DNA from: a virus
DNA length: 30,807 nt
Virus record (IMG/VR): IMGVR_UViG_3300037087_000076
Location: 1 to 30,807 of that record
Strand: one strand, 5' to 3'
A program made the position numbers and the translations under genes. Below are positions 7,243-29,202 of the stretch, in pieces (positions within the stretch are counted from its first letter, which is position 1; each line of letters starts with the position of its first letter). The notes beneath the pieces are model-generated. The model was not told where the DNA came from. It saw nothing but the letters and a program-made list of their open reading frames with translations, and ran no database searches.

Positions 7243-8355
7243 CTAGGCTTCGTCGCAGTAGAGCCAGGTGTAGGGATAGCGCACGTTCAGGCCGGCGTAG
7301 CGGTAGGTGCCCGGCACGAAGATGTCGAGACCTTCGGGCTGAGGAGCCAGGAACCGCAGCGGCATGGGGATGTGCATGATCATCCGGCGCGACTCGTTCC
7401 GGTAGAACAGCATGCGGCTGGCCGCCGTGGAACCGTTCGAGTGGCTGAAGCCCTTGTTCGAGAACTGATAGACAGGCTCGATACTGATTGGCTCTTTCTT
7501 GGTCGTGGTGAGGATGTTGCCTTCCTCGATCAAGCTGAGCAGCGTCTTGGTCCCGAGCGCGTTGTAGGTGGTCGCCAGCACCGAGTAGGTGGCCGGGTCC
7601 ATCGCAACGGTATTAGGAAGCACGACGTACTGACTGTTCTGCCAGGCCGTGAGCAGGCACAGATTGAAGTCGGCAAGAATCTTTTGGAAGTTGCCCAACG
7701 CAGCCTGAGTCGCCCAGGCGCCGGTGTAACCCGACATGGACTGGTTGATCAGCGTGATTTGTCCAGCGGCCGTTCCGGTCGTCTGATTGGTCATGCCGAG
7801 GTAGCTCGCGCCACCCGCAACGCCGGCCACTTCGCCGTTCATCGCGACTTCGTTCAAGTGGCGCTCTGCCATCTCGACGGCGGTCTGCATACGAGCAATC
7901 GGGAGCGGACGAAGGAACTTCGCCGACTCGATCAGCTCTTGCTGATTGTAGCGGTAGCCAGCGCCACCGTTGACCACCTGGATTTCGACCTGGCCCGCAG
8001 ACACGTCAGCCGTGGGAACATCCTTCGAGCTGGCAGAAACCCGCTTGCCCTGGCCGACCTTGTCGTAGACCTGGTAACGAACGCTGGCCGCTTCGGGGCC
8101 GGCTTCGGAAGTCACGGGTACGAGGGAACGGAACTGCATCTCCGTGTATTCGCGCTCGTAGACAGTCGCCTCGGTATAGGCGAGCTGAGACACCACGAAG
8201 GCCATCGTCTCGGGCGAGTCGACTACTTCCTGGTGACCGTTGTTGTGCATGAGCTTGGCGACTCCCTCGCGCAAAAGACCCATCCGGGCCTCGTCGACCA
8301 GGGCGGTCGTAGGTGCGCAGGACTCGCAATCAATGACGTTTACTTTGCGTAGCAT
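7243..8355 (-). CDS. Major capsid protein (DUF2184 family, HK97 fold)
   Basis: A 370-residue protein in the expected slot after cement protein and before connector. Sequence blocks such as YTEATVYEREYTEMQFRSLV, AGYRYNQQELIESAKFLRP and the C-terminal FLAPQPEGLDIFVPGTYRYA match the DUF2184 major capsid family (HK97 fold). Unlike many HK97-type capsids, no long N-terminal delta domain precedes these blocks, in line with a separate scaffold. AGGAG precedes the ATG by about eleven bases. Confidence 0.9.
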   Translation of the reverse strand: MLRKVNVIDCESCAPTTALVDEARMGLLREGVAKLMHNNGHQEVVDSPETMAFVVSQLAYTEATVYEREYTEMQFRSLVPVTSEAGPEAASVRYQVYDKVGQGKRVSASSKDVPTADVSAGQVEIQVVNGGAGYRYNQQELIESAKFLRPLPIARMQTAVEMAERHLNEVAMNGEVAGVAGGASYLGMTNQTTGTAAGQITLINQSMSGYTGAWATQAALGNFQKILADFNLCLLTAWQNSQYVVLPNTVAMDPATYSVLATTYNALGTKTLLSLIEEGNILTTTKKEPISIEPVYQFSNKGFSHSNGSTAASRMLFYRNESRRMIMHIPMPLRFLAPQPEGLDIFVPGTYRYAGLNVRYPYTWLYCDEA

Positions 8356-9616: not shown

Positions 9617-10180
9617 GGTCTTGTCCTTTCGGGTTTCTGAATCGGCAACGATACAATCGGCGCCGCCGCGACCTCGCGGTACTAGGGCTGTATGATTTGC
9701 CCGGATATTTCTCATGTACCCATCGACGGGCTTTCCGTCGGGGGTTTGCTTGATTGAATCGTCGAAGTCGAACATGTAGCCGGTGGACAGCCCGTCACAG
9801 CCGGCGTTCAGCGCATCGATCGCCCGCTTCGCCTTGAACGTCAGCGTGGCTTGCATCTGGTCGCCCACCATGTGGACGCCGCTGGTATCGCCGCACGCGT
9901 TCTCTAGCCAGTTGGCCGAGGTCAGCAGCTTGCCCTTGGGGTGCGGGTAAGTGAGACTCGCGCCTTCGTAGCTAGATGCCGCCTTGGCCACTTCGTCGAC
10001 TGGGCGGTAGAGGTTAATCCGCGTGTTGGGCGGAACGCCTGGAAGGTCAAGCTCGGAAGCCAGGTACGTCTGGATATTCCCGCCGACCGCAATCGTGCCC
10101 GGCGCGGTGACGAAGCCCGTCTTGCCGTCCACTGTCCGCTGAGAAAGCGTCGAGAAGTCGTGAGCCGTGCAAGTCTTCAT
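8966..10180 (-). CDS. Prohead protease with C-terminal scaffold region (DUF2213 family)
   Basis: A 404-residue protein starting at the ATG that overlaps the stop of the upstream gene (ATGA, 10177-10180). Residues 1-180 are the DUF2213 protease domain. His80 in SLTYPHPKGK, Ser132 in CDGLSTGY and His163 in NIRANHTALVPRGRGG are the likely catalytic and conserved residues. Residues 190-404 are mostly acidic helix with alanine and lysine, typical of scaffold, and contain a coiled-coil stretch (about residues 215-275). The full-length form should carry the protease into the prohead and then cut scaffold. A nested start for the scaffold part is listed separately. Confidence 0.85.
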   Translation of the reverse strand: MKTCTAHDFSTLSQRTVDGKTGFVTAPGTIAVGGNIQTYLASELDLPGVPPNTRINLYRPVDEVAKAASSYEGASLTYPHPKGKLLTSANWLENACGDTSGVHMVGDQMQATLTFKAKRAIDALNAGCDGLSTGYMFDFDDSIKQTPDGKPVDGYMRNIRANHTALVPRGRGGADCIVADSETRKDKTMATRTVRIGKSKTPLEFEEPAASMVETLAADHAQLTIDHEKVIGDLATVLESGKLAIAAKDAEILELKGAQKAAIDAEKVALDHAGIIVEAGILAPEVKPAGKPSSTLRREAIAIACKGDAAIKLAVDAALCGEALDKAGDDRLGSAFSVALAVKRQKKTETVATTATDSAFTRELLTAGDDKTVVDSAVSKGDGSDLSGYERYKWNLCHPKRHTA

Positions 10181-11019
10181 GCCGCCGCTCCGAATCCGAA
10201 CTGCGCTTCCATGTTGTCTAAGTCTAGGTGCGGCAACGCAACGCATCGACAATTGCACGCCATTCCCGGATTGACTGGCTCGTCGTCGACAATGGGCGGG
10301 TTGTCCCAACTGAAAACTTCGCCATCGAGTTCGGCATGGCTGTCTCGTACGCGCTCGTCCTCACTTGTCGACCACTCGTATTGCTCAATACCGAGATCGG
10401 TCTGCCGGACCTGGTTGAAGCTCGAATTCATTTTCGAAGTCTGGTCGCGCGCGATGAAGGCGGCGCGGTTTTCCGTGATGTCGCCAATCTCTTGAATGCG
10501 ATCGGTAAGCGACTCCCACCGCATGCCCTCGGCCCAATGGGTTTCGACGGCGTTGGTGATCTTGTCGAAGTACTGCTCGGGGATGGACTTGATCAGGTCG
10601 ACGTTGTCCTTGATCGCCGAGTGGGTCGCCGAGGTGATGCGCGGGTTGTTGGTCAGGAACGGCTTGACGTCGACGCTTACCGATGCGCGGATGGCAGAGG
10701 CCAGTCGTTCGTCAACGGCGTCCCGGCTGCGCGCGGCTGCGCCGAACGCGAGACGGTCGGCCAGCTTGCCGATGCCGCCGAATTCGCGCGAGAGATTCTT
10801 GATCTGCGCCTTGGCGCTCGATTCGTTCGGGCTGTCAACCGCAAACAGCTCGCCGTCGGTAGCCTGCTGGGGGAAGAGCGACTTGAGCGCAGGAATCAGG
10901 ACGGCCTGCGTGCGCTGCCTTAGATGCTTCACCAGACGTTGAAGCTCGGCCCGATACCAAAGCTCGTTCTTGTGGCTGGGGCGCACCGGGCGCATCGTGC
11001 GGCCCTGTCGCTTGCGCAT
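10177..11019 (-). CDS. Mu gpF-like head morphogenesis protein
   Basis: A 280-residue protein if started at ATG 11019, preceded by GGAGAGG; ATG 10995 is an alternative, and the frame stays open upstream to a TTG at 11145. The N-terminus RPVRPSHKNELWYRAELQRL fits the usual start of the Mu gpF-like family. The C-terminal signature is clear: RVRDSHAELDGEVFSWDNPP, then NPGMACNCRC, with the R-H-D and paired cysteines of the minor head protein family. The protein goes into the prohead in few copies, near the portal. It is unusual that it is separated from the portal gene by about 6.4 kb of inserted genes. Confidence 0.82.
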   Translation of the reverse strand: MRKRQGRTMRPVRPSHKNELWYRAELQRLVKHLRQRTQAVLIPALKSLFPQQATDGELFAVDSPNESSAKAQIKNLSREFGGIGKLADRLAFGAAARSRDAVDERLASAIRASVSVDVKPFLTNNPRITSATHSAIKDNVDLIKSIPEQYFDKITNAVETHWAEGMRWESLTDRIQEIGDITENRAAFIARDQTSKMNSSFNQVRQTDLGIEQYEWSTSEDERVRDSHAELDGEVFSWDNPPIVDDEPVNPGMACNCRCVALPHLDLDNMEAQFGFGAAA

Positions 11020-11136
11020 CCTCTCCACGGCATGGCCCGGCCCCGTTATTCCGGAGTGGAGCAAGTGCCCGATCTTGATGTGCACGCCCCCATAGTGAGG
11101 CAACCGTGATGCACGTGGAAGAGCGACGTAGACCGG

Positions 11137-11153
11137 TTGGCACAAAACTTGCT
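11137..11153 (+). promoter_or_regulatory. Possible sigma-54 (RpoN) promoter
   Basis: TTGGCAC, five bases, then TTGCT. This fits the -24/-12 consensus TGGCAC-N5-TTGCW at every conserved base except the optional G after TGGCAC. The expected start point is near 11164, upstream of the only plus-strand operon. No good sigma-70 pair is visible in the same gap. No enhancer site was identified, so it may be a chance match. Confidence 0.45.
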
Positions 11154-11204
11154 AGCGTCTGATAGCTTGACTCTTTCGTCTTGGTTGTGCGAGACTCGCT
11201 GCCC

Positions 11205-11420
11205 ATGGGATCGAATACCGTCACTTTGGACAAGGAACTCAGGTATTCGTTGCTGCAACTCATGGGAGAAAAGGGCGGCATTTCTAATGCCTCTAGGATC
11301 CTGAAGATTCCCAGGCAGACGCTTCTCAACGCTGCGAATGCGCTCCCGATTCAGCGTGGGACGGAGGCGCTGATCACGCAGAAGATGGCGGCGCGGGGAA
11401 AGACTGGGAAGGCCACATGA
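11205..11420 (+). CDS. Small helix-turn-helix protein, likely regulator
   Basis: A 71-residue protein from ATG 11205; an in-frame TTG at 11181 would add eight residues. Residues about 26-46 (ISNASRILKIPRQTLLNAAN) have the spacing of a helix-turn-helix, with A-S-R-I-L-K-I-P as first helix and turn and RQTLLNAAN as recognition helix. It is the first gene of the plus-strand operon and ends in an ATGA overlap with the next gene. A role as an autoregulator of the operon is inferred from size, fold and place. No strong ribosome binding site precedes either start. Confidence 0.6.
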   Translation: MGSNTVTLDKELRYSLLQLMGEKGGISNASRILKIPRQTLLNAANALPIQRGTEALITQKMAARGKTGKAT

Positions 11421-12400
11421 AGATCGTGGATGCGATGGAAATAGGACGGGCGATCGTATTATCCACGCATGGCCCTGTGACCCGTGATGCCCCCCAGTAC
11501 AAGCGGTCAGCATATGAACTTCCAATTTTCGATGCAACGGAAGTGCATTCACTTCTCGATCCTGACGTGGACAATGGCACAGAGAATCTTGTTGTTGATG
11601 GGATCAAGTTCAGCCTTCCATTCGATGGCATGGTGATTGTTGATAGATTCGCCAACAAAGAAGAACTAAACGGCACCGAGTTCGCCATCTTGGCCTGCCA
11701 GGTCGCGTCCGATATCGAGGGGCCGTACAGCCTCCAGTTCCGCGCGACTTTCCCAGGGGCAGCATCTTTCATTCGCGCGGATGTCCTCTGTTTGCCGAAG
11801 GATCACAAGCTGCCAATAGTGCTAGGATCCGGGATGCTTGGCATTGACGAAAATATGACGCTTATAAAAGCCAATTCAATTGCCATTACAGATTATAAGC
11901 GACCAACTGGGAAGTGGAATGACTACGTCACGGTGATGATGGATCGAAACATTGATCCAGAAGCCATCGAAGGCCAGAGAAGCGCTATCGTTCAAGAAAT
12001 TTCTGGGTTACTGTTCATGATAGCCCTACTGAACTGTAAGAACGTAAGTGCATCGCTGAGTCCGTATCCAATTACAAAACCGACGCTCAAATGGGGAAAA
12101 TCTAAGCAACCCAAGGGGAAGCGCTATTACGTCTTGGACATAGAGCCCATGCGGAGGCTCATGAAGCATGAATTTCAGGGAGGCCAAATCACGACGGCCA
12201 AGGCGCTCCATCTATGTCGTGGCCACTTCAAGAACTTCGACGACAAGCCGCTCTTCGGAAAGCTCAAGGGAACGTATTGGTGGCAGCCCCACGTGCGCGG
12301 TGCCGCTGAGGCTGGCGTGGTCGACAAGGACTACCGGATCAAGTTGGAAGCCAAAGCGATGCCATCGACCGACCCCCCCCCCCCCAAGGAGACCGCATGA
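11417..12400 (+). CDS. Uncharacterised protein with conserved HFK...KPLFGK...WWxPHVRG block
   Basis: A 327-residue protein, no function recognised. The N-terminal 200 residues are mixed alpha/beta with no membrane segment. Residues about 235-305 hold a striking block: KRYYVLDIEPMRRLM, LHLCRGHFKNF, DKPLFGKLKGTYWWQPHVRG. I recall similar blocks in hypothetical proteins of phages and plasmids, but no activity is known to me. Codon use is visibly richer in A/T in 11.4-12.1 kb than in the capsid genes, which suggests separate acquisition. The gene ends in a run of 13 C (12373-12385) encoding prolines, just before the AAGGAG of the next gene. ATG 11417 overlaps the stop of the HTH gene. Confidence 0.7.
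   Translation: MKIVDAMEIGRAIVLSTHGPVTRDAPQYKRSAYELPIFDATEVHSLLDPDVDNGTENLVVDGIKFSLPFDGMVIVDRFANKEELNGTEFAILACQVASDIEGPYSLQFRATFPGAASFIRADVLCLPKDHKLPIVLGSGMLGIDENMTLIKANSIAITDYKRPTGKWNDYVTVMMDRNIDPEAIEGQRSAIVQEISGLLFMIALLNCKNVSASLSPYPITKPTLKWGKSKQPKGKRYYVLDIEPMRRLMKHEFQGGQITTAKALHLCRGHFKNFDDKPLFGKLKGTYWWQPHVRGAAEAGVVDKDYRIKLEAKAMPSTDPPPPKETA
12373..12385 (+). repeat. Homopolymer tract of 13 C
   Basis: Thirteen consecutive C residues lie in the last codons of the 327-residue protein (four prolines and flanks). They are followed at once by AAGGAG and, nine bases further on, by the next start codon. A change of one or two bases would alter the C-terminus and break the ATGA coupling with the next gene. 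Confidence 0.95.
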
Positions 12401-12642
12401 TCTTCCCTCCGCCAATTCCGCTCCACGCTCCGCTCTACTACGGTGAACCACCGTCAAAGACAGTTGCGGTCGTGATAGTATGGGGCATCGTTGCCTTATG
12501 TGTGTTTGCTGTGAGAGCCGCTGACGCGATATTCGACCAAGGCTACCGAGTGAACCATCGTCGCAGCGCCTTCCTGTCATTCCTCGCGCCGCTCTGGCCG
12601 AAAGTGTTGTTCTGCCAACCGAAGGAGAAGACCGATGAGTGA
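12397..12642 (+). CDS. Small single-pass membrane protein
   Basis: An 81-residue protein. Residues about 22-39 (TVAVVIVWGIVALCVFAV) form one clear transmembrane helix, followed by a basic region (VRAA...VNHRRS), so the C-terminal part is probably cytoplasmic. The N-terminus is proline rich. ATG overlaps the stop of the previous gene (ATGA, 12397-12400) and has AAGGAG upstream. It ends eight bases into the following gene. I do not recognise the family; it is not a clear holin. Confidence 0.65.
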   Translation: MIFPPPIPLHAPLYYGEPPSKTVAVVIVWGIVALCVFAVRAADAIFDQGYRVNHRRSAFLSFLAPLWPKVLFCQPKEKTDE

Positions 12643-12940
12643 CCAAGTAGCCCCCATGAGTGAACCGATGTTAAATCTTTCACAGCGCCTTTCCGCTCAG
12701 GAAATCATCTCAATGTCCGCAGATGCCGTAAGACGCCGTGACTACCTGAAAAATACCCGCATCCCGGAGTTGAAGGCCACCATTAAGGGCTACACTGAAT
12801 CCTTGATTGAAGAAGAAATGGATCTAGTTCGACGGGAACGGAAGGTAGCAGAACTGGATATTCCGTACCAGCAAGCAACCGCGCTTCTAGCAGAGGTTAC
12901 CTATGTCGAACCCGAACCCACGAAGGAACCCACCACATGA
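12635..12940 (+). CDS. Small coiled-coil protein
   Basis: A 101-residue protein, no family recognised. Residues about 30-75 (AVRRRDYLKNTRIPELKATI through EEEMDLVRRERKVAEL) are charged with heptad-like leucine, isoleucine and valine spacing, as in a coiled coil. The C-terminus is Glu/Pro/Thr rich. The start is in an overlap of eight bases with the membrane protein gene, and GGAGAAG lies upstream. The end overlaps the next ATG by four bases. Tight coupling suggests that the operon products act together. Confidence 0.6.
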   Translation: MSDQVAPMSEPMLNLSQRLSAQEIISMSADAVRRRDYLKNTRIPELKATIKGYTESLIEEEMDLVRRERKVAELDIPYQQATALLAEVTYVEPEPTKEPTT

Positions 12941-13254
12941 GCCAGAAGCCAGCTACCCAACCCGCCGCCCGTCAGTCCACTCTCGCCACGTTCTCCCCGC
13001 CCATCCCGCGCCCCGAACCGTGGACACGCGATGGAAGCTGGATACTCAACCATGAACACCGGCCAGTGTGCATGCTGCTTCCGAACACGACCGACGCGCC
13101 GAAGAAACTGTTGCTCGCCGCGGGCGATACGGCTTGGCAGCGCGATGTGATGCTGGCATGCCTACGAGACGTGGCGACCGCGCCGGGACTGGAAGGTGTC
13201 GCGGTTGATTCGGCGCGAGCCCTGCTTGCGGAGATGGACAAGGACGCCACATGA
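12937..13254 (+). CDS. Hypothetical protein
   Basis: A 105-residue protein of unknown family. The first 30 residues are Pro/Thr/Gln rich and probably disordered. The rest has a short beta segment (SWILNHEHRPVCMLLPNTTD) and two helices (WQRDVMLACLRDVATA, AVDSARALLAEMD). It is coupled by ATGA overlaps on both sides (12937-12940 and 13251-13254). No motif points to an activity. Confidence 0.6.
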   Translation: MSQKPATQPAARQSTLATFSPPIPRPEPWTRDGSWILNHEHRPVCMLLPNTTDAPKKLLLAAGDTAWQRDVMLACLRDVATAPGLEGVAVDSARALLAEMDKDAT

Positions 13255-13478
13255 GAGAGGGCGACCGCGTGATGCTGGTTGCCGACTTCGAGCGGATAGC
13301 CGGGGGCACAATCCAGGCCGGCACCTTCGGACTCCTCGGCGTTACCGTCGGAAACGTTGGGCACGTCATGCTCGACGGCGGCGGCTCGGCCATCGTTCCC
13401 GTGAGCCTACTGCGCGCGGCCTTGCCCCGCCAGTCGCATCAAGCCGAAACCAGCGACCCAGAGAAAGACAAGCCATGA
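13251..13478 (+). CDS. Small beta-barrel-like hypothetical protein
   Basis: A 75-residue protein beginning MREGDRVMLVADFERIAGGT and continuing with alternating glycine and valine strands up to about residue 55. The opening 'GDRVMLV' and the later 'GHVMLDGGGSAIVPVSLLR' resemble small SH3/KOW-like barrels. The last 20 residues are polar. The function is unknown. The start and stop both lie in ATGA overlaps. Confidence 0.6.
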   Translation: MREGDRVMLVADFERIAGGTIQAGTFGLLGVTVGNVGHVMLDGGGSAIVPVSLLRAALPRQSHQAETSDPEKDKP

Positions 13479-13942
13479 GCGAATCCAAGCACAATCCGCA
13501 AGCCCTTCTAGCCGCCACGATGCCCGCGTTGCTCCCGCCGGGCTTCGTCTGCCAGGGTATGACGCTCGGAATGCAGATGCGTCCGAACCCGAACATCCTT
13601 CTCTTGCCAAGGGAACTCATGCGCACCAGCGTGGAAGGCCCCAACATGGGAGAACTAGAAGTGTTCATCGCAGGCCCCAACGGCGAGCCGGATGGATGGC
13701 GGCGCGCTCCTGAGGGCATGGAGGCGCATCTTCTAGGCACGCCGCTACCTACCGAGAAGTGCAGCGTGGTCATCATGGCCATGTCGTCAGTAGTGGATAC
13801 GCTCGATAAGGGCATCGTCACCCTCGACGGTAAGCCGCGACAGACCATGCAATCGACCATCGGGCACAAGGTGATTGCCGTGGTGCCGCTGGACGTGTTC
13901 CAGAAAGAGCACATGGCGAATCTGCGAGGGCCTACGACCTAG
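13475..13942 (+). CDS. Hypothetical protein ending the plus-strand operon
   Basis: A 155-residue protein of unknown family, started at the ATG that overlaps the previous stop (13475-13478); the longer frame upstream to 13196 runs through two real genes and is rejected. It is methionine rich (GMTLGMQMRPNPNILLLPRE, VVIMAMSSV). Two beta segments flank a loop with GPNGEPDGWRRAP, and it ends in IGHKVIAVVPLDVFQKEHM. No signal peptide or membrane helix is seen. Its stop shares the palindrome CTAG with the stop of the convergent glycosyltransferase gene. Confidence 0.65.
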   Translation: MSESKHNPQALLAATMPALLPPGFVCQGMTLGMQMRPNPNILLLPRELMRTSVEGPNMGELEVFIAGPNGEPDGWRRAPEGMEAHLLGTPLPTEKCSVVIMAMSSVVDTLDKGIVTLDGKPRQTMQSTIGHKVIAVVPLDVFQKEHMANLRGPTT

Positions 13943-14583
13943 CCCCGTTCCGAATGTAACCTTGCCAGTATCGCCATGACCTGATGCCTTGCGAGCCCGT
14001 CTGCCCTTATCGCTTTCATGGCGTGGCGGGAAGCGTGAAGCATCAGCGTCTTGTCGGTCATGACCTGCGGCTCCTGACAAATCAGCAACTCGTCAACGTG
14101 GCGATCGCTTGCCCGCTGCAAAATCGTCATATCCGAAACATGTGGGCGGCCTTCGTAGGTGTCATCGGCCGTCGGTTCGTAGCCAAGCATCATCTGGCAC
14201 CACTGGGCAGCGCCATTACTCGTCAGGGCCATGGCACACGGTACATAATAGTTGCACAAGCAGATGATGTCAGGGCCGGCAACGATGGCAGGCGCTCGGA
14301 ACCCGATGTTGACTACGTCGTAGTCCACCATCAACCCGCCGCCTATGGCGCGCATTGCAAACCACCGAAGGTAGCAGGCCAGGTCATAGCCTTGAGGGTT
14401 CACGCTGGGCAGGCGCTGTAGCCGCTCCATCTCTTCGATGGTGATGACTACGTCGCCTCGGCCTAGTACCTTGCACTCCCAGCCCCAACGCTCCCAGGAC
14501 TCGCGCCACACGGCCAGCTCTGCACGCTGGATAGACTCGTCAACGTTGGGGAGTGGCTCGTAGTAGGTGTGGACAACGTTCAT
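13939..14583 (-). CDS. Glycosyltransferase with DxD motif (GT32-like)
   Basis: A 214-residue protein. It begins MNVVHTYYEPLPNVDESIQR, followed by a region with Y-L-R-W-F-A-M and IGGGLMVDYDVVNIGF. Asp87-Tyr-Asp89 is the metal and nucleotide-sugar binding DxD, and 'LRW...GGxxxDxD' is typical of the GT32/DXD sugar-binding group. It is last in the three-gene transferase cluster, with an ATGA overlap to the methyltransferase (14580-14583). The sugar and acceptor cannot be told from the sequence. Cytoplasmic: no signal or membrane segment. Confidence 0.75.
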   Translation of the reverse strand: MNVVHTYYEPLPNVDESIQRAELAVWRESWERWGWECKVLGRGDVVITIEEMERLQRLPSVNPQGYDLACYLRWFAMRAIGGGLMVDYDVVNIGFRAPAIVAGPDIICLCNYYVPCAMALTSNGAAQWCQMMLGYEPTADDTYEGRPHVSDMTILQRASDRHVDELLICQEPQVMTDKTLMLHASRHAMKAIRADGLARHQVMAILARLHSERG

Positions 14584-15227
14584 GCGCTACGCCGACTCAA
14601 CACCGCGAAGAACTCACCCGGCTCCATCGTCCACTTGCCATCGGCGCACGCGATGAACTCGTCAACCGCGGTCTTTACGCCACTGGAGAAAAATCCATAA
14701 TCGTCGCATACCACTACCGCGCCATGAACCGCCACGTTGTCAAGCCACGCCAGCGCATCACTCGTGCCATCGAAGAAGTCCAAATCCACATAAGAGAACT
14801 TGACCGCCAATGGCAGAGCGGCCACGTCCTTCAGCGTGTTCGCGATAAAGCCGTCGTGGATAACCACCCGATCACTCGGAAACCAGATGGCGCTCAACTC
14901 CGATTCTACGAGCTCGCGGCGAATGGACATCTGGCCCGCGTATGCGTCCATACTTCCGAGACTAAAGATGTCGTTCAGGAGATGGTCACGCTCGCCAGGC
15001 GCCGGCAATCCCTGGAAGCTGTCGAACAGGTGCAGCGCCGTCGCTTCGTCGCGGATTTCGTTGGCGATGAGCGCGGATGTTCTCCCTTGGGCTACCCCGA
15101 ATTCACAGCAGGAGCCGGGCAAGTCTCGGACCTCTGCGAGTGCGGCGATGATGACTTGCGCCTCGTCTTGGGATGTGCCGAGGAGGGCGGCGAGCAGTCC
15201 GGGGCGAAGTTCGTCGCGGACGCTCAT
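14580..15227 (-). CDS. TylF/MycF-type O-methyltransferase
   Basis: A 215-residue protein of the macrocin O-methyltransferase (TylF) family. Seen features are the SAM-binding motif EFGVAQGRTS (residues 42-51), the signature LFDSFQGLPAP (67-77), the metal-binding type DLD at 148-150 and DDYG at 175-178. The family methylates hydroxyls of sugars or related products using S-adenosylmethionine and Mg2+. Placed between two glycosyltransferases, it most likely methylates a sugar they transfer. ATG overlaps the TAA of the upstream gene by one base, so the three genes are translationally coupled. Confidence 0.85.
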   Translation of the reverse strand: MSVRDELRPGLLAALLGTSQDEAQVIIAALAEVRDLPGSCCEFGVAQGRTSALIANEIRDEATALHLFDSFQGLPAPGERDHLLNDIFSLGSMDAYAGQMSIRRELVESELSAIWFPSDRVVIHDGFIANTLKDVAALPLAVKFSYVDLDFFDGTSDALAWLDNVAVHGAVVVCDDYGFFSSGVKTAVDEFIACADGKWTMEPGEFFAVLSRRSA

Positions 15228-16918
15228 TACCTACCCCTGTGCACAAGCAGCGACGTCGCATGGCCAATCGCTGAGTAATCCTTAACGCTGACGAGAAGCG
15301 CGCTCTCTTTGGCCATGCTCAGAAACACTTCCGCAGAGATATTCGTGCACCCATATTCGTTCCGTATGATCCCCGATGGCCCAGCCTCGGCCAGTAGCAC
15401 TTCACCAAGAAAAACGTCCCATGCCAGCTTGGGATGACAGCGGTGCAAGCTTGGACGGTCAGGCCAAAGCGAACAGTGGCACACGAAGCTACCATTTACG
15501 TGCCAGTGCTGCCGCCCACCGAACGTCATCCTCGGGCCTGTGATTCGCTTCCCGAGTTGCAACGTGTGGTTGTGCGCTTCCTTGATTCGGTTGATCCAAT
15601 CGGGCGACAACGGACACGCGTCGCCTTCTATCATGAGCGCATTGGCACACGGCAGCCTCCCGCTGTAGTACGCATCCGAGACCTTCTGCATAGCGCTCGC
15701 CCACGGGTCGAAGGCAATTCCCGGATACGTCTTCTTCTCGTCTACCGTGACCTCCATGGGCACGTAGCCGAACTTGTGCCCCACGTAGGCCATGGTCTTT
15801 CGAATGTCGTCATCCATCGGCGTGGCGCTCTGGCGGGCGAACACCATATAGACGTCGTCGCGCCAGCACGGCTCGATATCGGCGATGAGTCGGGCCAGCG
15901 CCATGGCTCGGTCTTTGTCGCCACTCCAGAACTGCAACACGATGGCCAGGCAGTCGGGGACAGCCTTCGCCGCCGCGTCTTGCTCCATCTGCTCATCGAG
16001 AATGCGCCTGGCGTGCGTGGCGCCGAACGGGTAGCGCTCGGCCGCGGGCATGGCCTTGGCGGGAGGCTTGGGGGGCGCTGGCGCGACAACGGGCCGGAGG
16101 GCGTCGATGTTCTTCACGGCTTGGGAGATTCGAGCTTTGGCTTCATTGTGTGCATCCATGACCAAGTCGATGGACTGCCTCGCGATGGCTTCCCCGTATC
16201 TCTCGACGCGCGCCTTGGCCTCTCCCGAAAGGGGAGGGATAGTCACGGTGAAGTGGGACGGGTCATTCTGGTCAACGTCACACGCCCCGTGCGTGTTCTT
16301 CACCGCTTCAAGCAACGCCAGCTTGTTCTCAATCCCTACGGTCCAATTCGCGTGATGCACCATCAAGTCAGCCGGCGGCGCCACTGGATCGCCTGGTTTC
16401 CAGCAAACGCCATTCCTGCCCACGGTCCAGTAGCGCTCTGGCAGAAGCCCCCACGCTGGCGCGAAGGGCGTTTCGAGCAAGCGGTTCGCCGCGTCCTGGT
16501 CCATTTGATTCGTCTCGCGCATCCACTCGGCGACCTTGCGCCAGTATTCCAACACCCGCGGCGTGGGACGCATGACCATGAACCCGGTGCACGCGCCGGC
16601 GGGGCCATCGTCCTGGAAGAGGATGTCGCTGTCGCCAAACAACTGCATCAGGTCCGCCGTCGGGTCGCCGTAGAAGCGCACGTCAACGTCGCTGAAAATG
16701 AACGGCTCGCCGTCGAGGTTAGCGGCCAGCACTTCCAGGATGTAGCCTACCTTGGCGAGGCACGTCGCTTGGAAGCCGTCGCTCTGGAATGCGCCGGTTG
16801 CGCTTTGCTGGGGGAGAAGACGGACGCTGAAGTTGAGACGGCTGGTTCGCAACGATGGTGCGAAGTGTTTCTCAAACATCCCATTATGGCTTGGCGTATA
16901 GCAGGCGTAGATCTTCAC
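15227..16918 (-). CDS. Two-domain glycosyltransferase
   Basis: A 563-residue protein with a GTG start overlapping the stop of the preceding gene (GTGA, 16915-16918). Domain 1 (about 1-225) has FIFSDVDVRF with the DxD at 77-79, then GACTGFMVMRPTP, as in nucleotide-diphospho-sugar transferases. A helical, proline-rich linker spans about 230-300 (APPKPPAKAM). Domain 2 (about 320-563) has a second glycosyltransferase-like core with LMIEGDACPLSPDW, where Glu431-Gly-Asp433 stands in the DxD place. It could add two sugars in turn, or the second domain may be a non-catalytic binder. Function in virion or surface glycosylation is inferred. Confidence 0.75.
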   Translation of the reverse strand: MKIYACYTPSHNGMFEKHFAPSLRTSRLNFSVRLLPQQSATGAFQSDGFQATCLAKVGYILEVLAANLDGEPFIFSDVDVRFYGDPTADLMQLFGDSDILFQDDGPAGACTGFMVMRPTPRVLEYWRKVAEWMRETNQMDQDAANRLLETPFAPAWGLLPERYWTVGRNGVCWKPGDPVAPPADLMVHHANWTVGIENKLALLEAVKNTHGACDVDQNDPSHFTVTIPPLSGEAKARVERYGEAIARQSIDLVMDAHNEAKARISQAVKNIDALRPVVAPAPPKPPAKAMPAAERYPFGATHARRILDEQMEQDAAAKAVPDCLAIVLQFWSGDKDRAMALARLIADIEPCWRDDVYMVFARQSATPMDDDIRKTMAYVGHKFGYVPMEVTVDEKKTYPGIAFDPWASAMQKVSDAYYSGRLPCANALMIEGDACPLSPDWINRIKEAHNHTLQLGKRITGPRMTFGGRQHWHVNGSFVCHCSLWPDRPSLHRCHPKLAWDVFLGEVLLAEAGPSGIIRNEYGCTNISAEVFLSMAKESALLVSVKDYSAIGHATSLLVHRGR

Positions 16919-17280
16919 TTGGTTGGGTCCTTCACGATGGTGGCCGGCACTTGCTCGCCGTTGATGGTGATGGTCTCGGGCTTCTGTTCTTCGAAGAAGT
17001 AGCTCTTGGGCTCGAATGGCTTCGGCTCTTGGGCTGGCCGCTGCGCCGCCATCCGAAAATGTTCATCCGTGATCGTGAACACCTCGCCGGCCTTTACGTT
17101 TCGCGCCCACACGAGCCTTCCGTCGACCACGCGAACGGTCGGCCGAGCTTCCCACTCGCGCCGATGCCGCATCTTGCGCCGCTGCTTTCGGGTGGGCCGG
17201 CCCGAGTAGCACCTTGGAACATCCCACACTATCGCGTTCATGTCCCGGCGTTGCTTGCGGGTTGGGTGAATGCGCTTCAT
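16915..17280 (-). CDS. Small basic protein with duplicated TRKQRR motif
   Basis: A 121-residue protein from ATG 17280; the frame is open up to a GTG at 17340. The first 45 residues are highly basic and contain an internal duplication, HPTRKQRRDM and RPTRKQRRKM, about 24 residues apart, suggesting nucleic acid or polyanion binding. The C-terminal half (WARNVKAGEVFTITDEHFRM onward) is ordinary and ends EQVPATIVKDPTK. No family is recognised. It lies between portal and the transferase cluster and overlaps the GTG of the latter. Confidence 0.6.
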   Translation of the reverse strand: MKRIHPTRKQRRDMNAIVWDVPRCYSGRPTRKQRRKMRHRREWEARPTVRVVDGRLVWARNVKAGEVFTITDEHFRMAAQRPAQEPKPFEPKSYFFEEQKPETITINGEQVPATIVKDPTK

Positions 17281-17437
17281 GGCTTGCCCCGTTTTGCTCC
17301 CCCAGAATGCCCCACAGCAGCGCACGCGGCAGACAACCACTACGACCGACAGCGTGATGGTGGGGCAATCAAGGGGAGCAAGTGAATGGCCATCGTGGTG
17401 AGGCCATTACGGCACGACGGCGCGGCGCTGTCAAGCT

Positions 17438-19129
17438 CTAGTCGTCGTTGCCCGCGGCGGGCTTCCTCTCGAACGGCGAAGGCTTCGCGGCCGGCTCGCC
17501 TTCCTTGCCGTTCTTTGGCTCACCCGCGACGGCGCCTACTTCACCGGGCACCGCTGGCACCCCAGTCGGCGCAACCACTTCAGGCGGGTTGAGCAGGTCG
17601 TCCATTTCCTTTTCCGATCGCGCCTCGCCGAGCTCCTTTGCCATCTGGACGTCCTCGTCTTCCATCGTCTTGAAGCTGCCGTCGTTGCTTCTCTCGCGTG
17701 CGATGAGGCCTTCGCTGGCTACGCCCATATCGAACCACGTCTTGTCCGAGTTGGCCTTGTTCACTCTCACCGTTGACGCTTGCACTTCCCCGAGCTGGCG
17801 CAGCGGATTGAACTCGCTCTGGAAGTTGTCGGGCATGTAGCCGAGCGCGCTTCTGGCCATCACCTGGTCGATGGTGTTGAGCTGCGGGCCTAGGTCAAGC
17901 TCTTGCTTCGCCTGAATGTGATCGTCCCAGTTGTCCTGTTCGCCGTCGCCGTTGCTGCCGAGTCCGCCGGGAGATTGTCCGAAGAGCCTGGTCATCGGCA
18001 TGTCGTACGCGCCCGCGAGGTCGGTGCGGCTATCGCTAAGCATCTGTGCGACGCCCGAGAACTGCGCCGGGTTGCGCGTGTAGGTCTCCTTGTCCTTGTC
18101 GAGGATCATCATCCGCGTCGTGCCCTTCATGGCGTTCAAAAGCTGGTAGCGCTTCATCGCCGTGACGGTGCCATCATCGGTGGTGAGCAAATCCCACAGC
18201 CCCTCGGCGGAAATAACATCCTGATTCGCCTCGGTGATCAGCGTGCCAGCGCCAGCGACGATACTGTCATAATTCTTCGTGGCTGTCTTCACCGAGCGAA
18301 AAACGCTGTCATCCCACAGGGCGTTGCGCATCCATTCGTACCAAGGCAGCTCCTCACCGTTAAACCGCACGCATCGCGAATGATGAACCTGCACCGACGT
18401 GTCAGCGAGGAAGTAGTATTCAGGCAAGCCGAAGTTGGGATCGCCGAGCGACTGATTTAGGTACGGCGCAACGATGGAGGCGTCGACCTGTGCTTGACCT
18501 TGAACCATGGCCGCCTTCGACGGCGGCATGCCGTACACGCGCCAACGGTCGAAGGGCAAAATCCCGAGCAGGCAATCTTTCTTGAGGCGGTCGAGCTCAA
18601 GCGGCTCCTTCATGGCCTCCGCGCTGGCCTGCCCCTTGATCATCATCACGCCGATGCAGCCGCCGTAAAGCCGCGACCACTTGATGCACTGGTGAACGCG
18701 CTTCTTGAGCTGTACACGCTTCTCCTCGGCGAGGATGGCCGGCAGTCCATTCTCGGCCTTGCCCTTGTCCATGCCATCCCATGAAATTTTGCGCCACTTG
18801 CGAACCATGTCGTCGGCCGGCGTGACCACAAGCCTCTTGCATGACCACGAATTCTCGAACATCGCATCCGCGGTCAACCGGTCAATCGGCGGGCCGGGCA
18901 CGTACTTGCTGTACGTGGTCTTGTCCGAGTGCGTACCCATGCCGGTAACGAAGTTGACCAGACCATCGACCACGAACGGGTTGATGGTGCCCGGCGTGCC
19001 AGGGCTATCGATGGCGGTATGCTGCATCTGCGGCGGCAAGCTCGAAAGAATCTTGTAGCCAGCGCTGTCGTTCGCCACGTGCGGCGAATGGCTAGACTCT
19101 GGAATGCCGAAAAATGATCGTAGACTCAT
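17438..19129 (-). CDS. Portal protein (DUF1073 / Phage_portal_3-like)
   Basis: A 563-residue protein following the large terminase by eleven bases. Typical portal blocks are LTADAMFENSWSCKRLVVTP near residue 90, WSRLYGGCIGVMMIKGQ near 150, and the stretch DLAGAYDMPMTRLFGQSPGG near 380, which is highly characteristic of DUF1073 portals. The portal forms the dodecameric ring through which DNA enters. In some relatives a phosphoesterase of the Acb1 anti-CBASS type follows this domain; here the C-terminus is only a proline/glycine-rich tail (VVAPTGVPAVPGEVGAVAGE), with no sign of Acb1. Confidence 0.88.
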   Translation of the reverse strand: MSLRSFFGIPESSHSPHVANDSAGYKILSSLPPQMQHTAIDSPGTPGTINPFVVDGLVNFVTGMGTHSDKTTYSKYVPGPPIDRLTADAMFENSWSCKRLVVTPADDMVRKWRKISWDGMDKGKAENGLPAILAEEKRVQLKKRVHQCIKWSRLYGGCIGVMMIKGQASAEAMKEPLELDRLKKDCLLGILPFDRWRVYGMPPSKAAMVQGQAQVDASIVAPYLNQSLGDPNFGLPEYYFLADTSVQVHHSRCVRFNGEELPWYEWMRNALWDDSVFRSVKTATKNYDSIVAGAGTLITEANQDVISAEGLWDLLTTDDGTVTAMKRYQLLNAMKGTTRMMILDKDKETYTRNPAQFSGVAQMLSDSRTDLAGAYDMPMTRLFGQSPGGLGSNGDGEQDNWDDHIQAKQELDLGPQLNTIDQVMARSALGYMPDNFQSEFNPLRQLGEVQASTVRVNKANSDKTWFDMGVASEGLIARERSNDGSFKTMEDEDVQMAKELGEARSEKEMDDLLNPPEVVAPTGVPAVPGEVGAVAGEPKNGKEGEPAAKPSPFERKPAAGNDD

Positions 19130-21793: not shown

Positions 21794-23821
21794 TCACGAA
21801 AGCGTTCTCCAAACTCCTCCGACCTTCGTTTGCCCGCTGAGCACCGTTCGCCACTGGCCGCTGACCCTTATCGACGTCGACACGACGGTGCGCCACTGGC
21901 CGGCGACAAGCAGTCGCCCGCCCGAGCCCTGAACGACTACGCCGCTGGTCGATTCCGTTTCAGCCACAGATTCGGATAGCCCAGCGATGGCAGCCGTCGA
22001 TGTGGTTGACTGCTCCGTTTCGGTTTCGCTATCGGAAAGGCCAACGCTGGCACTTATCGAGCCGGCGACCGTCGCGGAAATCGCCTCGGTCTCGGCCAAC
22101 GAAGCGGACAGTGCGAGGCCGCCCGTCATCGACTCCGTGGTGCCTTCTGTCTCACTGACACCTACGGAGGAAACCCCGGTGGCCGCGACCTGTTCGGATT
22201 CCGCCTCGGAGTCTGCCAGTCCCGCGTTCGCCTTCGCCGAGGTTGCAGCAGCTTCGGAAGTCGCTTCCGACTCGGCGAGCCCCGCAGTAAGCGCAAGGCC
22301 GCCTGTCATCGATTCGGATTCGGCGTCCGCCTCGGAAAGGCTTGCGCTCGCCGTTTCCGTGGCCGCGGCTTGCTCTGTTACCGCTTCGGATTCGGCCAGA
22401 CCAGCGATCGCGGATCCAACCGCCGCAGTGCTTTCCGATTCGTCCTCGGACTCGGTCACGGCTACAGGCACCGTGCGAATGGCCGACGTGCTCTCCGTTT
22501 CCGCTTCGTTTTCGGACAGTTCAGCGGACAGCGCCAAACCGCCCGTCATCGCTTCGGCCACGGTCTCGCTCTCGGAAACCCCGCTCTGGATGAGCACTGA
22601 AGGAGCGACGGATTCCGCGACGGCGTCAGACTCAGTTACCCCAACGGTCAAGGCGAGACCGCCTGTCATCGCTTCCGATTCGGCCTCGCTCTCGGACAGG
22701 CCTGCGGACAATGCGAGGCCGCCCGTCATCGACTCCGTGGTCGCTTCGCTCTCGGAAACGCCCGCGCTCGCCGCTGTCGATACCCCGGTGCTTTCGGTGA
22801 CAGCGTCCGACTCGGACAGTCCGGCCACCGCCGTCGAAGTCGTGGCGGCGCTCTCCGTTTCAGCTTCGGACTCCGCAAGGCCGGCGGCCAAGGCGAGGCC
22901 TCCCGTCATCGATTCCGCAACGGTCTCGCTTTCGCTGACACCTTTTTGGATGAGCACTGAAGGGGCAACGGCGTCCGATACAGCATCGGACTCGGTCAGC
23001 CCCGCGGATGCTACCGAAGACGACGCCGTGCTCTCCGCAACGGCATCTGACTCGGTCAGCCCAGCGACCGCGATAGCCGTCGCGGCAGCCTGCTCCGTTT
23101 CCGCCTCTGACTCTGCCGCCCCCACGGTTGCCGCCGTAGTTGCAGTTGTGCTTTCGGTGACAGCATCCGACTCGGATACGGCCACCGGCACGGTGCGAAC
23201 TGCTGTCGCCGATTCCGTTTCGGCTTCCGACTCCGAAAGGCCAGCGTTCGCCGTCGCTGTCGTGGCAGTGCTTTCCGATTCGTCCTCGCTCTCGGCCACC
23301 CCGAGCACAGCAGATCCAACCACCGCAGCGATTTCTGCCACGCCCGCCGAATCGGTAAGGCTCGCCGACACACGCGCAGAAGTCGCTGTACTTTCTGACT
23401 CTGATTCAGTCTCGTAGACCGACGCCGAGAACACGGTCGCCGTGGCTACTGACTCCGATGCCGCTTCCGATTCCGCGACCGCCGTCGAAACGATCACCAC
23501 GCCAGCAACAGCCTCGGCGACGGCTTCGGACTCGGCGAGGATCGGGACTGCTATTGTCCCGTCTGCCGCTTCTGTGACGGTCTCAGATTCAGCTACTGCG
23601 GCAGCGTCAATTGTCGCTGCCTGTACATCTTCCGTCTCGGCAACGCTCTCCGTAAGCTCGGAGTCTACCGTGTACAGAATTCCGGCAGTTTGCCCAGGAT
23701 CTGGAACTATGAGCGACGGCGTCGTCGGATTGTAGAACTGTCCCGTGTCCCCCACGGGACAGTATCCCAGTGGGTACAACCAGTTCGCTGCCGCGCCGGG
23801 CGCACCTATACGGTAGGACAC
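21794..23821 (-). CDS. Repeat-rich virion/adhesin-like protein, 29 x 20 residues
   Basis: A 675-residue protein with GTG start at 23821 (GAGG seven bases upstream). Residues 1-53 are a unique head (MSYRIGAPGAAANWLYPLGY). Then come about 29 repeats of 20 residues with consensus (L/V)(S/A/T)ESEAVTES, followed by a variable ten-residue part, for example MTGGLALSAG or TATTATANAG. The protein is very acidic and has almost no Lys or Arg in the repeats. The C-terminus has three copies of a 'V-x-G-x-W-R-T' unit (VAGQWRTV, VSGQWRTV, VGGVWRTL), as seen in phage tail and adhesin ends. It probably forms a long stalk; location after the fibre genes supports a virion surface role. No signal peptide. Confidence 0.75.
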   Translation of the reverse strand: MSYRIGAPGAAANWLYPLGYCPVGDTGQFYNPTTPSLIVPDPGQTAGILYTVDSELTESVAETEDVQAATIDAAAVAESETVTEAADGTIAVPILAESEAVAEAVAGVVIVSTAVAESEAASESVATATVFSASVYETESESESTATSARVSASLTDSAGVAEIAAVVGSAVLGVAESEDESESTATTATANAGLSESEAETESATAVRTVPVAVSESDAVTESTTATTAATVGAAESEAETEQAAATAIAVAGLTESDAVAESTASSSVASAGLTESDAVSDAVAPSVLIQKGVSESETVAESMTGGLALAAGLAESEAETESAATTSTAVAGLSESDAVTESTGVSTAASAGVSESEATTESMTGGLALSAGLSESEAESEAMTGGLALTVGVTESDAVAESVAPSVLIQSGVSESETVAEAMTGGLALSAELSENEAETESTSAIRTVPVAVTESEDESESTAAVGSAIAGLAESEAVTEQAAATETASASLSEADAESESMTGGLALTAGLAESEATSEAAATSAKANAGLADSEAESEQVAATGVSSVGVSETEGTTESMTGGLALSASLAETEAISATVAGSISASVGLSDSETETEQSTTSTAAIAGLSESVAETESTSGVVVQGSGGRLLVAGQWRTVVSTSIRVSGQWRTVLSGQTKVGGVWRTLS
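21900..23660 (-). repeat. 60-bp coding tandem repeat, about 29 units
   Basis: The repeat region of the 675-residue protein keeps a 60-base period almost without exception (one unit has 19 residues). The first half of each unit is conserved (acidic ESE core). The second half comes in recurring cassettes: MTGGLAL six times, VAPSVLIQ twice, RTVPVAV twice. The pattern shows shuffling of half-units. Confidence 0.9.
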
Positions 23822-27582: not shown

Positions 27583-29202
27583 TCAGGCGGTCGCGGGGGA
27601 TAGCTGCAACATCGCATCGGTTTCGACGATGTACTTCGCAGGGTCGGCCATGACCTTGGCGTAGACCTCCTTTCCCTCAAATGAGTCGACCGCGGCTTGC
27701 TCGGTCGCGCTCATGTCGGCGTACTTGCGCTTGCCGTACGAAGGCGGCAACCACTGCTTCCGCTGCGCGCCGAATCGGTTCAGACGGTCGAGTAGATCCT
27801 TGCGCGAGAATCGGATGTGCACCGTCCCCTTTTTGAAAAAGGTCACGCTGAAGAAGCTGGACTCGATGTTTGACGATTGCTGTATTTCCTTCGCACGGGT
27901 CATCGCGGCCGCGATGGTCACGTCAGGTGGAAGCCCTCCGTTCAGAAACGTTAGGCACTTCTCCAGGTCGGTCAACTCTCGTGCGCCATTCGAGCGATCC
28001 CAGCGATTCCAAATCTTGTCCCACGCGTGGTGCGGTAGGATCACTTTGTCGTTGATCTTCCAACTCTTGTTCGTACACCACCCGTCGAAATAGTGGATGT
28101 TGTCGGAATCGTGATCCCACGAATGAACGCGTGACAGGTCGTCGAACTGCTTGAGAATCGTCGCCTCGATGCTGGCGATGGTGTGGTTCGACAAATCCCT
28201 CTGAATCGACACGATGTTGACCCGAGAGAATTCGTACTCGGCCAACGTCTCCACCTTCGCCGTCAACTCGCGCTGGAGGTTCGAAGTGAGCTGCCCGATG
28301 AACTGAGGCGCCTCGAAGAGCGCCTGCCAGTATTTCAGACGGGTCAGGCGGATGTATCCGTTCAGCATGTCGTTGTCACGACAACGGAATTTTCGCTCGT
28401 CGATGGTCAACTGGAGGATGGGATTGCGATTGTCTCCGCCAAGCTGGTCGAGTAGGTGCGGGCGGATCCGTTCGTACTCATGGAGCAATCGCATGCCCGC
28501 ATCGACCTCAAACCGATAGCGGGAGATGATGGCGTCGACGAAGTCTCCAGGAGCGATCTCCGTGGGTCCGCCACGCTTTGTGGCCTCGGCCTTCTGCGCC
28601 TCATGCAGGTCTTCGAGAATGATGCTGTCCGATACGCTGTTGGGAATGCCAACTCCGATGAACGCAACCTCGACGTCGGTGGGACGCTCGGCCTGGGCAA
28701 ACTCGCCCGCGTGGAATGTCACCGTCGCGCCCAGCGCTTCCAGTTTCTTGGCTAGGGCCTTGCGCTCGAACGTATACGGGTTGCGAATCGTCTCAGCGTT
28801 CAGCACACACCGCACTTGCCCGCCGTATTGGGCCAGCTCCAACGCTTTCAGCAGATGGCGAGCACCATCGGAAAACGGTGGGTTCATCACGATCAGGTCG
28901 TAGTGCTTACGGGTGTCGTAGGTTAGGAAATCGTCGTGCACCACGCGGAAGCCTGCGCCCTTGAGGGTATTGCGCAGGTCGGGGTCAAGTTCTATACAGT
29001 CGATATTGCTTTTTCCGTCGTAGCCGCGCGTGCTGCGGTAACTCCGTTCGCGAGCCGATTCGAGCATCTTGGCGACACGGGCGGCGATGTCGCCCTTACC
29101 GACCTGTGGCTCCAGCACCGTCACAATCGTGCTCCAGTCGATGTCCGCGAGCATTCGCGAGATGAGTTTCGGTGGCGTGGGAAAAAACTCATGGTCCAGC
29201 AT
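27583..29202 (-). CDS. DNA adenine methyltransferase with DUF4942 domain
   Basis: A 539-residue protein. Residues 1-230 form the class I methyltransferase: motif I LEPQVGKGDI (30-39), acidic motif CIELDPDL (69-76) and catalytic NPPF (107-110), the N6-adenine/N4-cytosine signature. Residues about 240-510 fit DUF4942, including YFDGWCTNKSWKINDKVILP and FFKKGTVHIRF. No restriction subunit is nearby, so it is an orphan enzyme, probably protecting phage DNA or controlling expression. Motif I has Gln-Val in place of the usual small residues but keeps the glycines. ATG 29202 lies two bases past the upstream stop. Confidence 0.85.
   Translation of the reverse strand: MLDHEFFPTPPKLISRMLADIDWSTIVTVLEPQVGKGDIAARVAKMLESARERSYRSTRGYDGKSNIDCIELDPDLRNTLKGAGFRVVHDDFLTYDTRKHYDLIVMNPPFSDGARHLLKALELAQYGGQVRCVLNAETIRNPYTFERKALAKKLEALGATVTFHAGEFAQAERPTDVEVAFIGVGIPNSVSDSIILEDLHEAQKAEATKRGGPTEIAPGDFVDAIISRYRFEVDAGMRLLHEYERIRPHLLDQLGGDNRNPILQLTIDERKFRCRDNDMLNGYIRLTRLKYWQALFEAPQFIGQLTSNLQRELTAKVETLAEYEFSRVNIVSIQRDLSNHTIASIEATILKQFDDLSRVHSWDHDSDNIHYFDGWCTNKSWKINDKVILPHHAWDKIWNRWDRSNGARELTDLEKCLTFLNGGLPPDVTIAAAMTRAKEIQQSSNIESSFFSVTFFKKGTVHIRFSRKDLLDRLNRFGAQRKQWLPPSYGKRKYADMSATEQAAVDSFEGKEVYAKVMADPAKYIVETDAMLQLSPATA

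Follow-up and report, generated by a model that had tools for sequence, protein, structure and literature searches.

An undescribed family of phage glycosyltransferases (GTs), which we call GTC, is tied to the major capsid protein (MCP) gene of uncultured viruses, and this, our strongest new result, goes beyond the coordinates originally given. GTC is the second domain of a protein encoded in a 30.8-kb virus record (30,807 nucleotides), probably a fragment, that as a whole is referred to here as the window. There it forms part of a three-gene cluster that is probably, if far from certainly, a virion-glycosylation island making an O-methylated glycan, most plausibly on a capsid or tail protein; the sugar, the order of the steps, the acceptor and the benefit to the phage are what we infer. 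The evidence consists of the families and folds of the encoded enzymes, their conserved catalytic residues, the translational overlap of the genes, and the recurrent placement of such genes beside those for portal and capsid.

The original prediction placed three overlapping genes at 13939-16918, and they lie exactly there on the minus strand (Table 1), the genes for the two-domain GT and the O-methyltransferase (OMT) overlapping by 1 nt and those for the OMT and the small GT, GTs, by 4 nt. The small ORF upstream also overlaps the two-domain GT gene by 4 nt, and resembles, over a stretch of 35 aa (46%), an ORF found between the GT and MuF genes of a related locus, L023. Along the minus strand the order is small terminase, large terminase, portal, small ORF, the three-gene cluster, an interruption, the Mu gpF-like protein (MuF), a DUF2213 protease, a cement protein and the MCP. 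GT and sugar-methyltransferase genes thus sit in the head-gene interval. The cluster lies between portal and the Mu gpF-like gene, as predicted, but does not directly abut the latter gene: a plus-strand cassette separates them. The first ORF of this cassette has a 39%-identical homologue in an opposite-strand cassette at the same place in locus L024, and its 327-aa protein matches phrog_20769 (function unknown). Recent acquisition, judged by composition, was rejected, since the GC content of the cluster (0.59-0.61) is that of the genome (0.60) and so gives no sign of recent import. A scan for promoters and terminators returned nothing above shuffled sequences.

Table 1. Features of the window discussed in the text.
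Feature	Position	Strand	Basis
Major capsid protein (MCP), candidate acceptor	7243-8355	-	phrog_264 6.3e-63
Mu gpF-like head morphogenesis protein	10177-11145	-	PF04233 7.1e-22
Opposite-strand cassette: 71-aa ORF (11205-11420), phrog_20769-like 327-aa protein, five more small ORFs	about 11205-13942	+	
Small GT-A glycosyltransferase (GTs), 214 aa	13939-14583	-	16-member alignment, structure model
TylF-family O-methyltransferase (OMT), 215 aa	14580-15227	-	PF05711
Two-domain glycosyltransferase, 563 aa, GTG start	15227-16918	-	PF03407 + GTC
Small ORF, probable ATG start near 17280	16915-17340	-	ORF list
Portal protein	17438-19129	-	PF06381 4.8e-76
Acidic repeat protein, 675 aa (Ala 20%, Ser 16%, Glu 13%, Thr 12%)	21794-23821	-	no Pfam family

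The largest protein of the cluster is a two-domain GT, as had been proposed. Residues 35-202 match the Nucleotid_trans family (PF03407; E=1.4e-14, 55.1 bits against a cut-off of 22), with the DXD motif in 'FSDVDVRFYG'; this motif is kept as DVD or DCD in L023 and L025. The second domain, GTC (aa ~318-563), matched no Pfam or PHROG family and carries an E-x-D-x-x-P motif at aa 431-436. An AlphaFold model of residues 318-563, computed from four relatives (pLDDT 78, pTM 0.82), has a GT-A fold, with a VIA Z of 14.4 to GlyE (over 204 residues) and a GT8 protein; LgtC, GnT-I and glycogenin also resemble the model. By this model GTC is a GT-A domain, given a match that spans most of its length and an acidic metal-site motif. 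The acidic motif is kept across 86 sequences (E114 in a fraction of 0.94, D116 in 1.00), as are H156 (1.00) and K229 (0.98).

The smallest protein, GTs, has the motif GGGLMVDYDVVN with its DXD at aa 87-89, and likewise matched no Pfam or PHROG family. A 16-member alignment keeps W30, G34, W35, R73, W74, GG and DYD, with D87, Y88 and D89 invariant; across 39 sequences D87 is conserved at 0.97 and D89 at 0.87. The AlphaFold model (pLDDT 90.8) has a GT-A fold, with a VIA Z of 13.1 to the catalytic domain of UGGT. The top Foldseek match is domain 1 of PBCV-1 A064R, at a weak E=1.8e-3 and with many GT-A enzymes close behind. This protein had been called GT32-like. The resemblance survives as a GT-A fold and a DXD following a GG-rich segment, a likeness of motif only, and membership of GT32 was rejected because PF04488 went unmatched in all 16 members at E 0.1. 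An ORF of L024 (5837-7093) joins the first half of one GTs homologue in frame to an SDH/SppA-type serine protease-like stretch, which may be either a genuine fusion or an artefact of assembly.

Between these two lies the OMT, whose assignment to the TylF family was borne out by PF05711 (E=2.1e-15, 57.1 bits against a cut-off of 23). It has the SAM motif EFGVAQG and a metal-binding and catalytic Asp pattern, DLD...DD. The solved proteins closest in sequence are the 5i10 and 4cdz O-methyltransferases, NovP and CalS11, a TDP-rhamnose 3'-O-methyltransferase, and the metal-site Asp residues align with theirs. Because sugar OMTs such as NovP and CalS11 are among these relatives, the family assignment suggests methylation of a sugar rather than of DNA or protein. 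The antibiotic-pathway enzymes act on different substrates, and no antibiotic pathway surrounds the phage enzyme. A TylF enzyme 58% identical to the OMT is encoded in locus L163 beside an FkbM methyltransferase; the OMT scan that reached this locus found no contig with the same three genes.

The PF03407 and TylF matches, together with homologues of all three proteins in independent contigs, indicate that the cluster is not a product of chance. The original prediction had named loss of catalytic residues across relatives as grounds for refutation; these residues are instead kept. Its proposal of a short methylated sugar stands as to sugar transfer and O-methylation, on the strength of families, folds and motifs, with the sugar and its acceptor left as putative.

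Both GTC and GTs recur in uncultured viruses. Their relatives in viral contigs came from the small-GT scan and from alignment-based scans; no relatives emerged when viral contigs were scanned with one sequence at a time of the two-domain GT, the OMT or the portal. After dereplication at 60% identity, GTC sequences formed 40 clusters, 29 of which show both a portal and a capsid gene, and GTC lies between the two in 29/29, often 180-250 nt before the capsid domain. To avoid selection by GTC itself, loci were also fetched by the capsid protein alone. Among those with a portal in view, 53/54 carry GTC in the portal-capsid interval, corresponding to 15/16 clusters at 90% MCP identity. The virion-associated location that had been predicted from the window is supported, as is a recurrent link to the capsid gene. 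The sole capsid-chosen locus with a portal in view and no GTC, L161, also has the shortest portal-capsid interval (2965 nt) and is a candidate empty site.

One virion backbone is common to most GTC loci, so their shared position is partly inherited, and the recurrence points to a stably kept, near-core gene more than to separate placements on many occasions. Different terminase and portal types occur in the window (together with L023-L025) and in L002 and L027, and the module still lies beside head or terminase genes; in L002 it is upstream of TerL and not beside the capsid gene. Two-domain relatives occur in L023 (45% over aa 37-547), L024 and L025, all of the same backbone type, and L023 keeps the two-domain GT without the OMT and GTs genes. 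GTC is a free-standing protein in L002 and in many other contigs. GTC and GTs are adjacent (<300 nt) in 20 loci, nine of which have them as single fused ORFs and some of which are near-duplicates. From this fusion and adjacency we argue that the two probably act in one pathway. The original prediction had proposed a search for the same three-gene order in other phages: the exact set and order were found only in the window contig, while sub-modules were found in other loci.

Searches of cultured phages at the DNA level, and by tblastn with GTC, GTs and capsid representatives, found nothing. Pattern scans for GTs and GTC across 84,980 genomes likewise came back empty, a provisional absence since each relied on one short peptide pattern. 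GTC and GTs are therefore undescribed families by the measure of Pfam, PHROG, the tested cultured phages and the genome pattern scans. A wider reading, which we hold to be slightly less likely than not, is that GTC is an undescribed phage-specific GT family, near-core in the capsid block of a group of uncultured phages whose capsids would as a rule carry phage-specified glycans, often with methylated or deoxy sugars, and that the module has spread to unrelated backbones including that of the window.

Among the companion genes in the portal-capsid interval, 17/93 are of the GDP-mannose 4,6-dehydratase/epimerase type, 4 match Methyltransf_24 and 2 match other methyltransferase models. An epimerase adjoins the two-domain GT in L024, and L010 encodes a fused protein (10810-12153) with a Methyltransf_24-type C-terminal part in an island that also has a GTC-GTs fusion. 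These islands resemble kits for building sugars whose components can be exchanged.

Most of the documented cases of phage virion glycosylation come from a few mycobacteriophages. The presence of GTC beside the capsid gene in nearly every examined member of an uncultured group suggests that capsid glycosylation is ordinary there, not rare, and sugar coats may be far more widespread among phage particles than is known. GTC and GTs offer marker genes for finding such phages, as well as enzymes that can be tested directly. This has a practical bearing, as mycobacteriophages are reported to be protected by their virion sugars against the binding of antibodies (PMC12363180).

The closest architectural precedent is found in cluster O mycobacteriophages, which carry three glycosyltransferase-type genes and an O-methyltransferase gene in the interval from portal to protease (PMC4351075). 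For Firecracker we confirmed the gene order, overlaps of 4-8 nt and the TylF family of the methyltransferase. Like the window, cluster O phages (Corndog gp35-38, Firecracker gp33-36) place a TylF OMT and overlapping GT-type genes directly after the portal and before the protease and capsid, and the OMTs belong to the same Pfam family with conserved Asp residues; E42-F-G, D148, D150 and D175 of the window OMT are common to the Firecracker and Yoshi enzymes. In contrast, the cluster O GTs are GT2/GT25-like and gave no match to the profiles of GTC, GTs or the PF03407 domain, and the phage backbone is another one. The Corndog proteins were detected in infected cells but went unreported in virions banded twice; capsid peptides were fewer than expected, for which the authors invoked possible methyl and glycan modification (PMC4351075). 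Later work cited in PMC12363180 (Freeman 2023 for Corndog and Che8) reported glycosylated virion proteins for Che8, Corndog and Myrna, and found that glycosylation of the capsid requires gp38 in Corndog and gp110 in Che8. Overlapping GT and TylF OMT genes are also found in cluster F1 (Che8; Yoshi gp114-116, with gp114 fusing a GT2 to a TylF domain), whose virions have glycans on capsid and tail tube. Unlike those of the window, the F1 genes lie at the right genome end, outside the morphogenesis block, and their GT families differ. The comparison showed no sequence relationship between the window and mycobacteriophage GTs, so the window cluster would be a system of the same kind put together from other GT families. 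Two GT domains with an O-methyltransferase also recall PBCV-1 A064R, a proven GT-GT-methyltransferase series that ends a capsid glycan with a methylated disaccharide (PMC9614988). A064R is, however, one three-domain algal-virus protein with no sequence relationship shown, and the fold match is common to many GT-A enzymes.

In our reading, one GT domain of the window cluster would begin a short glycan on an abundant structural protein, at a Ser/Thr or another side chain; a capsid or tail protein is the likeliest acceptor. The remaining GT-A domains would extend this glycan, and the TylF enzyme would O-methylate a sugar, probably capping the chain. The donor nucleotide sugars would be supplied by the host in the window phage; related islands bring their own GDP-mannose dehydratase/epimerase. 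The benefit could be that receptors or epitopes are masked, that the virion resists proteases or that adsorption is changed. Counting against this reading, the window MCP has no obvious S/T-rich tail. An S/T-rich capsid C-terminal tail as a general acceptor signature was rejected: the mean was 0.177 in the tail against 0.130 in the body, with the tail above the body in just 13/20 relatives, an enrichment too weak to be relied on.

The same enzymes could instead act on DNA: ahead of packaging the GTs would add sugar to a base that is hydroxymethylated or similarly modified, and the methyltransferase would cap that sugar. The cluster is close to the terminase and portal genes, DNA-decorating phage GTs are known (Pyle 2024, as cited in PMC12619734), and the window phage has a methyltransferase-like protein with DUF4942. 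That protein (27583-29202, minus strand) has its methyltransferase-like part at the N-terminus and is possibly a DNA methyltransferase. A thymidylate-synthase-type gene (PF00303, the dCMP hydroxymethylase family) was found, however, in only 1/20 records (the window being a fragment), capsid genes are what lies next to the cluster, and in the nearest precedent by architecture it is a virion protein that is modified. DNA is a disfavoured target, and we rate this reading as unlikely.

Enzymes of these kinds might also alter the host surface (O-antigen, capsule or teichoic acid), blocking superinfection or re-adsorption. TylF and FkbM methyltransferases occur in polysaccharide loci too. Surface-modifying GTs are found in many temperate phages (PMC12619734). 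None of the three cluster proteins has a transmembrane segment, however, no GtrA/GtrB-like partner was seen among the neighbours within the fragment that the window represents, and a surface-conversion gene set would not be expected to be tied so strongly to the portal-capsid interval. We therefore regard host-surface modification as improbable.

Virion glycosylation could, finally, have a tail or fibre protein in place of the capsid as its acceptor, a reading that departs from ours on the acceptor only. Here the acidic repeat protein, which the original prediction had put forward as an attractive acceptor, is possible from its composition (16% Ser and 12% Thr, or S/T 28%), a small GT lies near a collagen-like repeat protein in L005, and the mycobacteriophage tail tube is also glycosylated. 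Across relatives, however, it is the capsid gene that shows the genomic link, and no repeat-protein homologue was seen beside an island; we give a tail or fibre acceptor in place of the capsid a low probability. An ORF with a low-complexity Ala-Leu-Asp/Arg repeat lies on the minus strand at the contig end (29962-30624).
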